Assembly: GCF_000702325.1 (NCBI RefSeq)
Contig: NZ_KL370891.1
Span: 1 to 64,000, forward strand
Reading direction: 5' to 3'
DNA length: 64,000 nucleotides
From: Thiomicrorhabdus sp. Milos-T2
GTDB taxonomy: Bacteria > Pseudomonadota > Gammaproteobacteria > Thiomicrospirales > Thiomicrospiraceae
The stretch's first letter is position 1; every line of letters starts with the position of its first letter. This document shows, one piece after another, positions 58,894 to 63,567 of this stretch. The position numbers and the translations under genes are program-made. The notes under the pieces were generated by a model. That model had not been told where the DNA came from. It saw only the letters and a program-made list of their open reading frames with translations, and did no database searches.

Positions 58894-60186
58894 TTAAAGT
58901 TTAAAGAAATGAAAGAGCTGTACTGAAATACGATTATCTAATCCTTTTGCAGCAATATTGATTGGATGTGTTGAACTTTGATGTGGCGCTTCAAAGCTAC
59001 GCACTTCATAGTTAAATATCATTTTGCATTTAGGTGCATAGAACCAATTTAAACCAAGGGTTAGATTGTCAAAACGAACTTCTGTTGGTGATTCTGTATC
59101 GCGATAGGTTTGATCATATCGTGCTCTAACTTCAAAATCTTGATTGACTCGATACCCGATATCTCCCCACCAACCATTAGCTTTTGCTTCAGGTTTTATA
59201 TTAAAGGTAGCAATGTTTCCATCATTACCGACTGCACCAGGAATAGCTCCTCCATCTGTGCCAAAAGAAATCATACCATCGGCATTAATGTATTCTAAAG
59301 TGCTAGACCATTTGTCCCGTTTGTAAGTCATTCCTAACCCTTCGCGCATTCGATAGTAATCACCAGCATCTGAGGTGGTTAGAGTACGTTTACCATTGCG
59401 GTACCAAGCAAAGAGTTTTAAGCCTTGTCTTTGTTTGCCTTTGCCAGCAAAGATTTTTTCAGAAGACCAGTATAGATTGATGTCTTTGTCACTATTGTTG
59501 TCACTTCGCATCAAACCATTGCCATTACTAATCATCATAGCCCAAGTGTGTTCCCAGTCTTGACGTTGGTAAGAGTCAAAAAGCTGGACGCCAATATCAC
59601 GGAAGGTATCAACGGTTCCATTACGGTAGTTGGCATCGGTGGTTGAGGCGGGTAGGCCACTGCCATCAAAAAAGCTTTCTAGTACCAGCATGGCAGAAGG
59701 TAGAGCAAAGTTAGTGTAATCATATTTAGCTTGTTGCGCTTCTTCACTACTTGGATTTTTAAATTGACCAAATCGTAGGTTTGGCCCTAAATAATTAGTC
59801 GTCAGTGAGGCATCTAATGCCACAGCAAGCTTGTCTTCACTGCGAGTGATAACTCCGTTTCCAAATTCAACCAGGCCTGAATAATTCCAGTATTGGTTGA
59901 TTCGCCCGCGTGTTCCCAAGCGAGCTCTAAATATATTAATATTTGAACTGTCGCGGTTAGTTGGGCGAATCGTGTTACCAAAAGAATTTTGTCCTTGCCA
60001 GTTTCCGGCTGGAATTTTTGTACCGTCGGTCATTTGAAATTCAGGTTGAAACCAGGCAAATGTTTTATTAGTCACTTCTGTACCGGGCTTTTCTGTCCCC
60101 ATGATATTAATCCAGTTTACGGCATAGGCTGAAGAGCTAAAAGCGGTCAGAAGTAGATAGTATGGAAGTAACTGTGTATGTTTCAT
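58894..60186 (-). CDS. Phosphate-selective porin O/P-type outer-membrane protein
   Basis: Outer-membrane beta-barrel of the OprO/OprP type. The signal peptide starts at MKHTQLLPYYLLLTAFSSSAYA (ATG 60186), whose ATGA overlaps the upstream gene's stop. NIFRARLGTRGRINQYWNY, LRFGQFKNPSSEEA and many alternating aromatic strands fit the family. About 430 residues. The last residue is Leu rather than the usual Phe. Specificity for phosphate is family inference; its position behind a PhnD-like binding protein supports an oxyanion role. Confidence 0.8.
   Translation of the reverse strand: MKHTQLLPYYLLLTAFSSSAYAVNWINIMGTEKPGTEVTNKTFAWFQPEFQMTDGTKIPAGNWQGQNSFGNTIRPTNRDSSNINIFRARLGTRGRINQYWNYSGLVEFGNGVITRSEDKLAVALDASLTTNYLGPNLRFGQFKNPSSEEAQQAKYDYTNFALPSAMLVLESFFDGSGLPASTTDANYRNGTVDTFRDIGVQLFDSYQRQDWEHTWAMMISNGNGLMRSDNNSDKDINLYWSSEKIFAGKGKQRQGLKLFAWYRNGKRTLTTSDAGDYYRMREGLGMTYKRDKWSSTLEYINADGMISFGTDGGAIPGAVGNDGNIATFNIKPEAKANGWWGDIGYRVNQDFEVRARYDQTYRDTESPTEVRFDNLTLGLNWFYAPKCKMIFNYEVRSFEAPHQSSTHPINIAAKGLDNRISVQLFHFFKL
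59871..59879. repeat. Near-match CCAGGCCTG in the porin gene
   Basis: Nine of ten bases, read on the minus strand as Ser-Gly-Leu-Val in the usual frame. Confidence 0.55.
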
Positions 60187-62534
60187 TGAGGGTCTCCAGA
60201 GCTCGATTTTGGGGCTAAATATAATGCTGGATGTTCTTTCTGAGGTTTGTCTAGGTGATAGCCTTGTACCATATCGATACCTAGTTTTATACACTCTTGT
60301 AATATGTCTTCATTTTCCACAAATTCTGCAATGGTTTGTTTACCCAAGCCTTTCGCTACATTTACGATACTTTCAACAAATAATCGGTTCTCGAAAGAAG
60401 AATCTAAATCTTTAATAAAAGTGCCGTCGATTTTAAGTACATCTACATTGAGGTATTTAAGGTATGAAAAGGAAGCAAATCCGGTCCCAAAATCATCTAA
60501 ACAGATAGTACAGCCAATATTTCGTAACGATTCAATAAATACTCTGGCATCTTGAATATCACAAACGGTTTCGGTTTCTGTGAGCTCTATCAATAATCGT
60601 TCAGGTGGAATTTCATGGAGCTGCATTAATTCGTTTATATAGGAAGGTAAAGTGATGTCATCAAAAGACTTACCTGAAATGTTAATGGCGATAGAAGGCA
60701 TTTGAGGGTAAGAGGCTAATGTTTCAATAGCATGACGAATAACATAGCGATCAATTTCAAGGATTTGTCCACTCTTTTCAGCAACTGGAATAAATCGATC
60801 GGGGTAAATAAGTTGGCCTTCCAGCGCTTTGTCTTTTAATCGAATAAGGGATTCAAGGTGATGAATATCATTATTATCACAGTTATAGATACCTTGGTAA
60901 TGAATTTCAAAGCCACTGTTTTTTAATGCAAAGTCAATGCTATCTTTCCAAGATAGACGAGCAAATTCTTTATCCATATCAGAAGTCTCGGGATTGTAAA
61001 TACAGAATGTATTCTTTCCTCGTGCTTTAGCTTGGTACATGGCAATATCAGCATGTGATGTTAAGAGCTCAGGATCATGACTTGGTTCAGGGTAGTAAGA
61101 AATACCAATACTGGTAGTCAGGCGAATAGTATCTCCATTAAAATGATGGTAAGTCTCAGCCATGGAATCAAGGATTCTCTGGGCAAGTTCTTCTGCTTCA
61201 GATGGCGTATCAACCAGAGATAATAGAGCAAATTCGTCGCCACCTAAACGACATAACCACTCCTCTTCACGAATTAGGTTTTTAACGGTATTAGCAATTA
61301 ATATTAATGCCTCATCCCCTCTTGCGTGGCCATAGGTATCGTTAATGAGTTTAAATTCGTCAATATCAAAAAACAGCAATGCTAAAAAGTGACCACGACG
61401 TTTTGCATACGATGCCATGTGTTTGATTTCTACATTAAATGAGTGGCGATTGTATAGCCCTGTTAATGCATCATAAGCCGCCATATGATGTAACTCTTGT
61501 TGCATTTGACGCTCATTGGTAATGTCTTCATAGATCCACAAGTGACCATTACCAGCTTCTGTTTGATGAACTAGCATGTGAGACTCCAGCACAATTTTTC
61601 CATTACTCAAAAGGTATTCATGAAGCTCTTCATCAGTATTTGTTGGTTTTAGCTGTTTTCGTTTGACGATATTTAAAGGTGACTGATTAAGAACAAATTC
61701 CAGTGAAGTATTATGAATATTATCTTCAGTGTTTAAATGCCAAATAGAGCAGAAGGCCGAGTTGTAGTATTTAATATTTTTAGCTGAGGTTTCAAATAAC
61801 ACCCCTAAATGCATTGTATTTAGCAATGAACTTAACCTGTTTTGTTCTAATTGCAGTTCAGAGGTACGTTCTTGGATGGCCAGTCTCATATTATTAAAAC
61901 TTTGGGTTAATTGTCCGACTTCATCATCACGGGTAACGGGAAGATTTGCGGAATCATTGCCTTGACTAATCGCTTGACTGGCGATAGTCAGAGTTTTTAA
62001 CTCTTTGGTTAAATAACGCATAATTAGGCTAACCAGTAGAAAAGCCGCCAAAATCGCAATCACAAGAGAAATAATAATTTCAGTTTGAAGTTTTTGTTTT
62101 AACGCCTCATATCGATCAAATTTAAATGTGTACACAACACTGCCTACTTTTTCACCTGCTAAGTTAAGGTCAATTGTTGTACTTAATTCCTTTAATGCAA
62201 CCGGTGCTTCTTGTGCGGTTGAATTAGTATGGCTTTCCATATGAACAGCAGTATGACCGAAGGCATCCTGTACTTTAATGTTTTGGATTTCAGGATAATT
62301 TTTTTCTAGCTCTTTTAGAAGGTGTTGAGCTCTAGCAAAATCTTGAGAAAACAAAAGAGGCGAGAGGGATGCATTCAAAAAATCATTTATTTGCGTGATA
62401 TTACGATTTTCTTCTGTTTGAGAAAAATCATCTAATAAACTTGTTAAGTTGATAATTAGCAGTAAAGAAAGTGCTCCTAATACGGCACTTATACTTGCAA
62501 TAACTCGGTTGGATAATGACTTGAAACCTATCAT
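60183..62534 (-). CDS. HAMP-PAS-GGDEF-EAL c-di-GMP enzyme
   Basis: Inner-membrane protein with segments near ~12-32 and ~150-172, a periplasmic part between, a HAMP linker (~175-225), a PAS-like region (~235-345), then GGDEF (~350-505) and EAL (~525-775). GGDEF is intact (CRLGGDEFALL). The EAL domain keeps ESLIRL, AINISGKSF, LIELTETE, CLDDFGTGFASF and KIDGTFIKD, so both activities are possible. 783 residues. It overlaps the PhnD-like gene upstream and the porin gene downstream by ATGA, a tight three-gene operon. Confidence 0.92.
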   Translation of the reverse strand: MIGFKSLSNRVIASISAVLGALSLLLIINLTSLLDDFSQTEENRNITQINDFLNASLSPLLFSQDFARAQHLLKELEKNYPEIQNIKVQDAFGHTAVHMESHTNSTAQEAPVALKELSTTIDLNLAGEKVGSVVYTFKFDRYEALKQKLQTEIIISLVIAILAAFLLVSLIMRYLTKELKTLTIASQAISQGNDSANLPVTRDDEVGQLTQSFNNMRLAIQERTSELQLEQNRLSSLLNTMHLGVLFETSAKNIKYYNSAFCSIWHLNTEDNIHNTSLEFVLNQSPLNIVKRKQLKPTNTDEELHEYLLSNGKIVLESHMLVHQTEAGNGHLWIYEDITNERQMQQELHHMAAYDALTGLYNRHSFNVEIKHMASYAKRRGHFLALLFFDIDEFKLINDTYGHARGDEALILIANTVKNLIREEEWLCRLGGDEFALLSLVDTPSEAEELAQRILDSMAETYHHFNGDTIRLTTSIGISYYPEPSHDPELLTSHADIAMYQAKARGKNTFCIYNPETSDMDKEFARLSWKDSIDFALKNSGFEIHYQGIYNCDNNDIHHLESLIRLKDKALEGQLIYPDRFIPVAEKSGQILEIDRYVIRHAIETLASYPQMPSIAINISGKSFDDITLPSYINELMQLHEIPPERLLIELTETETVCDIQDARVFIESLRNIGCTICLDDFGTGFASFSYLKYLNVDVLKIDGTFIKDLDSSFENRLFVESIVNVAKGLGKQTIAEFVENEDILQECIKLGIDMVQGYHLDKPQKEHPALYLAPKSSSGDPQ

Positions 62535-63388
62535 TTGGACTGCTTTGCTTGTTGTATTGCATTTAGGTATTTATCAAGAGTTTTTAGGTCTTGAGGGGTT
62601 TTCTCTCGAGCACCTTTTAAACCCGTTTTTTTAAAATAGGTTTTGCCTGGTTGTGTATTTTGAAAGTTTAAAAAGTGCTGCTTTAACTGGCTTATCATTT
62701 TGCTTCCAAGCCGAGGATTTGCCATAACGGCAAACCCTGGAATGTTCTCTGATTGTGTGAGCTTAATAATGGTTTCTCGTCCTGGTGGTTTAAACTTTGA
62801 CCAAGTTGGTTTACCAAATGCAGCGATTGGTGTGAGATTATTTATGACAGCAAGCATTGCATTGTTGTGTGAATTTACTTCTTTAATAGTAATGTCGACA
62901 CTCGGCGTTAGGCCAGCTTCTTTGAGTTTATGGAGTGCAAGTTGATGAATAATCGCTGTTTTTGGAGGCAATGCGATTGTTTGGCCTTTAAAATCGGCAA
63001 GTGTTTTAGATTGGTTATTCTGTTTTACCGCAAACACCGCATAAGAGATATTTGATGTGAACCCCAACCATTGGTAGTTGGCTTGTTTTTCTGCAAGTCT
63101 TCCTAAATGTGGTGCTGTAATTAAGATGTCATACCAGCCATTTTTAGTGTTTTGTTTAAAGGTTTTAAAGTTTGCAGCAGAAAGCATCTGAATAGGTTCT
63201 GTAGTACATTCTTGAAAATAGTTTTTTAGGGGGCGGTGGAGCTTTGCTAGGTAGCCTGGATTAGCATAAGGGAAAACACCCAATTTTAAGATGTTATCTT
63301 GCGTATAGGCATTAAAAGGAATCAGCAGACAAAAGACAATCCAAAGTAATGCTTTAATGTGATTGTGCAATAATATAAGCAAATTCAA
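62531..63388 (-). CDS. PhnD-like periplasmic substrate-binding protein
   Basis: Periplasmic binding protein of the phosphate/phosphite/phosphonate (PhnD) type: LKLGVFPYANPGYLAKLHRP, YDILITAPHLGRLAEK and LADFKGQTIALPP. The start is set at TTG 63388 (NLLILLHNHIKALLWIVF), preceded by AGAAGG; the upstream frame to 63439 lacks a ribosome site. The signal peptide ends near NAYT. About 285 residues. No ABC permease or ATPase is adjacent; instead it overlaps the HAMP-GGDEF-EAL gene by 4 bases, so it probably acts as that protein's ligand-binding partner (inference). Confidence 0.83.
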   Translation of the reverse strand: MNLLILLHNHIKALLWIVFCLLIPFNAYTQDNILKLGVFPYANPGYLAKLHRPLKNYFQECTTEPIQMLSAANFKTFKQNTKNGWYDILITAPHLGRLAEKQANYQWLGFTSNISYAVFAVKQNNQSKTLADFKGQTIALPPKTAIIHQLALHKLKEAGLTPSVDITIKEVNSHNNAMLAVINNLTPIAAFGKPTWSKFKPPGRETIIKLTQSENIPGFAVMANPRLGSKMISQLKQHFLNFQNTQPGKTYFKKTGLKGAREKTPQDLKTLDKYLNAIQQAKQSK

Positions 63389-63529
63389 ACTAATGACCTT
63401 CTCTTGAAATAAATACCCTTTTAATTTTATAGTAAACAAACTTCAAATACTACAAAGGTCACACCTGATAAAAAAGTTTAATAATTGTCGAAAATTGGTA
63501 ATGTTGAATTTATTTATTGATGCCTTAAA

Positions 63530-63567
63530 CTAAAAAAGCCATGGATGATAAAACATCCATGGCTTTT
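63530..63567 (-). terminator. Terminator of the DEAD-box helicase gene
   Basis: 14-bp perfect stem AAAAGCCATGGATG/CATCCATGGCTTTT with a short loop; on the minus strand it is followed by six T. Confidence 0.92.

Follow-up and report, generated by a model that had tools for sequence, protein, structure and literature searches.

In the 64,000-nucleotide stretch of Thiomicrorhabdus sp. Milos-T2 DNA analyzed here (the window), a binding protein of the PF12974 family and the membrane GGDEF-EAL protein encoded by the adjacent gene quite probably make up a single two-piece receptor, in which the former docks on the latter and tunes it, the ligand is unlikely to be a phosphate-like oxyanion, and the porin encoded next in the operon is a later addition. 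In the periplasm, the soluble binding protein would bind a small molecule and dock on the GGDEF-EAL protein at its periplasmic domain; the docking signal would travel through the second transmembrane span and the HAMP domain, and shift c-di-GMP synthesis versus breakdown. Receptor and docking domain would form a conserved module, which in relatives drives histidine kinases as well. The porin would be specific to the lineage, and may assist the entry of the ligand, or of some other nutrient, through the outer membrane. Docking and the synthesis/breakdown bias are proposed because of the analogy to the NspS-MbaA system discussed below; physical docking, response direction and both enzyme activities are what we infer. 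The features of the operon are listed in Table 1.

Table 1. Features of the receptor operon and of its surroundings, in window coordinates
Feature	Coordinates	Strand	Description and basis
PF12974-family periplasmic binding protein	62531..63388	minus	285 aa, TTG start; Pfam, AF2 fold, ortholog synteny
GGDEF-EAL enzyme	60183..62534	minus	783 aa; Pfam, hydrophobic segments, active-site residues
Periplasmic docking domain of GGDEF-EAL enzyme	62067..62456	minus	residues 27-156; profile matches kinase partners
Outer-membrane porin-like protein	58894..60186	minus	430 aa; Porin_O_P match
ATGA stop/start overlap, receptor/enzyme	62531..62534	minus	read from sequence
ATGA stop/start overlap, enzyme/porin	60183..60186	minus	read from sequence
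Terminator-like hairpin of upstream gene	63534..63567	minus	14-pair stem, T-rich tail

The source genome measures 2.66 Mb in two contigs, and the window covers contig 1 from its start to 64 kb. The arrangement given in the preliminary description, three genes joined by ATGA overlaps, was confirmed, all three genes lying on the minus strand. At the first junction (TCCAAATGATAGG) the stop TGA of the binding-protein gene overlaps the ATG of the GGDEF-EAL gene, at the second (CCTCAATGAAACAT) the TGA of the latter overlaps the ATG of the porin gene. Overlaps of this kind are usually read as a sign of joint translation, and both co-transcription and joint translation of the three genes are predicted from them. 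For the binding protein, the most likely start codon is TTG 63388, which follows AAGAGAAGG (judged by eye) and agrees with the end coordinate of the preliminary description; an alternative in-frame TTG is located at 63439. As the strong hairpin at 63567-63534 closes the upstream gene, the three genes appear to form a separate unit. The number of promoter-like sites does not exceed that of shuffled sequences (14 found vs. 15.6 expected).

The binding protein matches the Phosphonate-bd family PF12974 well above the Pfam cut-off (113 vs. 27 bits), and features an N-terminal signal segment spanning approximately residues 1-30. The fold of its AF2 model (pLDDT 88) matches those of PtxB (Z 25.2), XAC2383 (24.1), ArrX (24.1) and AioX (21.1), and also those of PhnD and HtxB, with PtxB, PhnD, ArrX and AioX within Z 20-25; PtxB is likewise the best match of the sequence profile. 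The protein scores below the curated cut-offs of both the PhnD model TIGR03431 (40.1 vs. 261.1 bits) and TIGR01098, the phosphate/phosphite/phosphonate binding subfamily (39.7 vs. 112.05 bits).

PtxB, HtxB and PhnD, which share the fold of the window receptor, serve ABC transporters. The family name would fit an ordinary ABC binding protein, sharing its operon with a c-di-GMP enzyme gene by chance and working with a permease encoded elsewhere, as is possible for orphan binding proteins in general. Such a reading is extremely unlikely in view of the linkage conserved across genus and class and of the docking domain common to two kinds of partners, both described below, and of the results of a genome-wide search for PhnE-type permeases, none of which scores above cut-off (best 43.8 vs. 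216.7 bits). This search agrees with the original view of a binding protein devoid of an ABC transporter, and addresses the possibility, raised at the same time against a sensing role, that a transporter encoded elsewhere uses the protein.

The GGDEF-EAL protein is made up by a first transmembrane span (residues ~11-30), a periplasmic domain, a second span (~153-172), and HAMP (170-221), GGDEF (352-508) and EAL (534-764) domains, scoring 48, 152 and 210 bits, respectively, in Pfam. The GGDEF motif (G431-G432-D433-E434-F435) is intact. In the EAL domain, E561, N618, E650, D680, D681, K701, E737 and Q757, which we take to be metal-binding or catalytic, are invariant in all five sequences aligned, as are the GGDEF active-site residues, and what is presumably the inhibitory RxxD site reads REEE in the window. 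With both the motif and the EAL residues intact, the enzyme is likely bifunctional, the two activities being predicted from sequence. An AF2 model of the protein obtained from five sequences (pLDDT 55) was too poor for a fold search. GGDEF matches total 48 in the genome, two being pieces of one frame, and adjacency to a GGDEF gene is expected by chance for ~2% of the genes, assuming a total of ~2,500.

The search of 58 genomes identified six homologs of the binding protein in the genus, four close (47-51% identity) and two distant (30-32%), all overlapping by 4 bp with a partner gene that follows. In the four close homologs the partner is an ortholog of the GGDEF-EAL protein (52-54% identity), and the pair is again flanked by genes that, by size and N-terminus, are moaC-like and deaD-like. 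The partner in the two distant homologs is a protein of 634-636 aa (L042, 4275-6185; L044, 3138-5042). Pfam analysis of the L042 partner recognized EAL and no GGDEF, which suggests a breakdown-only version of the window-type sensor. A second pair of receptor and GGDEF-EAL genes resides at another recurring place in genus relatives (L052, L053, L055 and L056), its receptors being ~22-24% identical to the window receptor.

Linkage was monitored at class level with a profile made from eight receptors, which matched 103 of 369 genomes at E≤1e-15. Forty loci, all outside the family of the window organism, were taken from the top of the match list, and their neighbors sorted by BLAST, motifs and Pfam. 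The receptor adjoins a same-strand membrane signaling protein in 35 of these loci (15 c-di-GMP enzymes, with GGDEF and/or EAL, and 20 histidine kinases). The c-di-GMP partner lies upstream of the receptor in L095 and L099, and is separated from it by a HAMP-GAF protein in L100. A membrane signaling partner is missing in four of the 40 loci (L092, L097, L098 and L101), the receptors of L092 and L098 lying beside LysR genes; in L114 the receptor is next to a HAMP protein interrupted by the contig end. Two loci of similar rank outside the 40, L045 with a GGDEF-EAL partner and L043 with none recognized, bring the joint count to 36 of 42. In L119 one ABC ATPase is encoded upstream, at a distance of a few ORFs and on the receptor strand, whereas the ABC ATPases of L095 are on the opposite strand. 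Lack of conserved linkage with the GGDEF-EAL gene had been indicated as an argument against a sensing role; the linkage is conserved in the genus as well as in the class.

The two kinds of partners were compared in the stretch between their two hydrophobic spans, from which docking segments were derived (L127 and L128 gave none and were dropped). A profile of 19 segments from c-di-GMP partners, the window one included, matches all 18 kinase segments, a set from which the kinases of L112 and L123 are excluded, with E values ranging from 6.6e-34 to 1.4e-13, the maximum for 180 shuffled sequences being 5.2 bits. The periplasmic domains of the c-di-GMP enzymes and of the kinases are homologous. 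A joint profile of 37 sequences (A5) was searched in 20 genomes chosen among those with receptors, and not as a survey of the class, and detected 52 docking domains, with 102 receptor matches (profile A4) in the same genomes. A receptor is located on the same strand at ≤3 kb from all 18 training and 22 of 34 held-out domains, vs. ~0.2 of 34 expected (about 0.5% per occurrence, as estimated from the average size of the genomes and the number of receptors). Looking from the receptor side, a docking domain is near 28 of the 30 best receptors, six of the next 30 and seven of the last 42, and the association is hence mostly a property of this receptor clade.

No receptor was found within 3 kb of the remaining 12 of the 34 held-out domains, so that the domain is also able to function by itself, or together with a partner encoded farther away. 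These cases are in line with the enzyme's own periplasmic domain sensing the signal, the binding protein having a modulatory role only, such as blocking the domain in the apo state. The paralogous partner in L052 scores with sCache_3_2 and CHASE8, the L112 kinase weakly matches sCache_3_2, and domains of the sCache/CHASE type often bind ligands themselves. Yet the domain is small, with 130 aa in the window protein, is very divergent, with one glycine invariant across 37 sequences, and mostly travels with the receptor, all of which makes such a reading quite unlikely. The two-piece receptor is favored, and the sensing role through the GGDEF-EAL protein put forward in the preliminary description is well supported by the conserved linkage, the shared docking domain and the lack of a PhnE above cut-off.

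A maximum-likelihood tree with 54 receptor rows, its topology taken from a quick search with SH-aLRT support only, was used to examine the distribution of the two outputs. At least seven changes of output are needed among the 43 labelled rows, vs. a mean of 14.8 and a minimum of 10 in 200 shuffles of the outputs. Output type is therefore clustered, yet exchanged repeatedly; so the conserved unit is the receptor with its periplasmic dock, and the output is interchangeable. We tentatively suggest, with slightly less than even confidence, that these proteins form a large, as yet undescribed class of modular, two-piece periplasmic receptors, a PF12974 clade which lost the oxyanion site, binds other, probably less charged ligands, has a dock of its own, and repeatedly exchanged its outputs.

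The available part of the AioX literature (PMC5908839) assigns Tyr88, Cys106, Tyr131, Ser161, Ser163, His192 and Asp210 to the AioX site, and Asn162 as the counterpart of Thr128 of PhnD. Positions 88, 106, 131, 161, 162, 163, 192 and 210 of AioX correspond to F, A, S, A, I, I, H and G in the window receptor, H192 being the only one of the eight residues kept in an alignment of distant proteins, in which single positions may be off. The S-x-S oxyanion motif is replaced by A-I-I, and the two tyrosines by Phe and Ser. The two oxyanion serines are kept together in none of 49 clade members, the histidine in 42 of them. PtxB retains an S-T-S site in the same alignment, and all eight residues are present in the AioX protein encoded by the same genome, which is the reference row of the alignment, residues having been picked by motif. 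The arsenite-binding Cys106 of AioX type is an alanine in the window receptor and a cysteine in the AioX of the same genome. The mature protein of the window has a single cysteine, which its orthologs do not conserve.

Arsenite was discarded as a ligand, the pocket having no cysteine, and a phosphate-type ligand was rejected on the pocket residues of the window receptor and the 49 clade members. As small or aliphatic residues replace the oxyanion cradle, phosphate, phosphite or arsenic oxyanions are improbable, and the ligand is probably none of them, judging from the residues lining the predicted pocket. A receptor that binds phosphate, phosphite, phosphonate or arsenate in the manner of PtxB, PhnD or ArrX, and reports through c-di-GMP, would agree with PtxB being the best match by both fold (Z 25) and profile, and with the histidine kept in the site. 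The replacement of Y88, C106, Y131, S161, N162, S163 and D210, and the lack of the complete serine pair in all 49 clade members, make it highly improbable. Sensing of phosphate, phosphite or arsenate, as initially suggested, finds no support, the oxyanion residues being lost.

Pairs of receptors and c-di-GMP enzymes are already known; the window pair belongs to a separate branch, the pocket of which lost the phosphate-binding residues. In NspS-MbaA of Vibrio cholerae, as in the window pair, a periplasmic binding protein acts through a membrane GGDEF-EAL enzyme: according to the part of the report available, norspermidine-bound NspS associates with MbaA and promotes its cyclase activity (PMC8967002). 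NspS binds polyamines. The NspS family is of the PotD type, and is distinct from PF12974. In Xanthomonas citri, the PF12974-family receptor XAC2383 is encoded along with a diguanylate cyclase, XAC2382, according to the available part of the source. XAC2383 structures 5ub3 and 5ub7 resemble the model of the window receptor (Z 24.1 and 23.2); XAC2382 is a cyclase by the title of the report, the window partner a GGDEF-EAL enzyme. The clade profile matches XAC2383 weakly (42 bits, vs. 129 for PtxB), hence XAC2383 seems to belong to another branch, and its assignment to the branch of the window receptor was set aside. The XAC2383 sequence gave no match in searches started from other relatives. Features of the NspS-MbaA and XAC2383-XAC2382 kind are found in the window, where receptor and enzyme genes are adjacent, co-directional and conserved, and the enzyme has two membrane spans, a periplasmic domain, and GGDEF and EAL domains with their catalytic residues.

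AioX-AioS-AioR, as ArxX and ArrX, resembles the window pair in that a signaling receptor of PF12974 fold is encoded with a membrane partner. Its output is a histidine kinase, unlike that of the window pair, and the arsenic-binding cysteine and serines of AioX, as given in the portion of the source available, are missing from the window receptor (PMC5908839). A PhnD-like domain is used for sensing also in the tetrathionate and thiosulfate kinases TtrS and ThsS (PMC5408782, in part); there the receptor domain is part of the kinase, whereas the window receptor is a separate protein. The accessible section of a review lists c-di-GMP enzymes among the receptors that binding proteins can stimulate (PMC9602780). 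Literature on PhnD and a diguanylate cyclase deals, in the parts available, with phosphate limitation in Pseudomonas. Stenotrophomonas BtsD was discarded as a lead, the available portion of its source describing no PhnD-like receptor. Searches of the open-licence literature, not all so aimed, retrieved no paper on the receptor clade or the docking domain, and none in that literature joined Thiomicrorhabdus with c-di-GMP.

Five PF12974 proteins above cut-off, the window receptor included, are encoded in the genome. Two of them are fused to outputs (GGDEF-EAL and LuxR-type HTH, respectively), and one is a lone protein. An AioX-like receptor is encoded with a histidine kinase and a sigma-54 regulator at L048 (contig 1, ~81450-88330), divergent from the aioBA genes, ~20 kb from the window operon; the aioBA arsenite oxidase was identified by TIGR02694 and TIGR02693. 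The L050 fusion (contig 2, 2327-6355 of the locus) is a 1342-aa protein in which the PF12974 receptor is associated with GAF, PAS, GGDEF, EAL and CZB domains, so that, by domain content, a comparable input and a comparable output are combined in one polypeptide. The L051 protein (contig 1, 4530-6473 of the locus; 647 aa) carries a TtrS-like PF12974 domain and a LuxR-type HTH, no kinase domain having been found, and is an apparent one-component regulator; its front part is similar to TtrS, scoring 178.5 bits against a cut-off of 750 for the whole-family model. Tandem NMT1/THI5-like and family-3 solute-binding domains are joined to GGDEF in an 824-aa protein at L150 (contig 1, 2656-5130 of the locus).

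The third gene product had been defined as a phosphate-type porin. The Porin_O_P match exists, just above cut-off (29.7 vs. 20.9 bits; the query carried one residue before the porin ATG in Pfam and later searches), and the label is weak, as the two related porins tested, L144 and L148, fail to reach Porin_O_P. No solved structure matches the porin by sequence at E≤1. Homologs are found in 29 of the 58 genomes searched, its own included, where a second copy, 40% identical, resides on contig 2. In four genus genomes, as for the own second copy and for G045, which hosts the best match outside the family (46%), the porin gene lies beside genes for small exported proteins and a gene pair on the opposite strand. 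The pair encodes an ECF-type sigma factor and a zinc-finger anti-sigma-like protein in L148, and a sigma factor was recognized in L144 (Pfam); other neighbors were judged by size and N-terminus. In L144-L149, the porin gene recurrently clusters with those for an ECF-type sigma factor, an anti-sigma-like protein and one or two small exported proteins.

A porin gene is beside the receptor/enzyme pair in none of 48 related loci scanned, and the six genus homologs likewise have none beside the pair. Since its relatives adjoin ECF sigma-factor genes, the window copy looks like an extra copy joined to the sensor operon, and a lineage-specific addition. The porin was rejected as a core part of the sensor on both grounds, and its role as an integral part, with the ligand admitted through it as earlier suggested, is not supported. 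The ATGA overlap with the enzyme gene would suit a working part of the circuit that lets the ligand in; set against the 48 loci, the association of genus porins with ECF sigma factors, and the second copy on contig 2, this is unlikely.

The signal is known for few c-di-GMP enzymes, and a dedicated soluble receptor, as the one predicted in Thiomicrorhabdus, lends itself to purification and ligand screening. As a homologous docking domain feeds both outputs, solving one complex and identifying one ligand would be informative for many systems, and the exchange of outputs would let kinase reporters read the inputs of such receptors.
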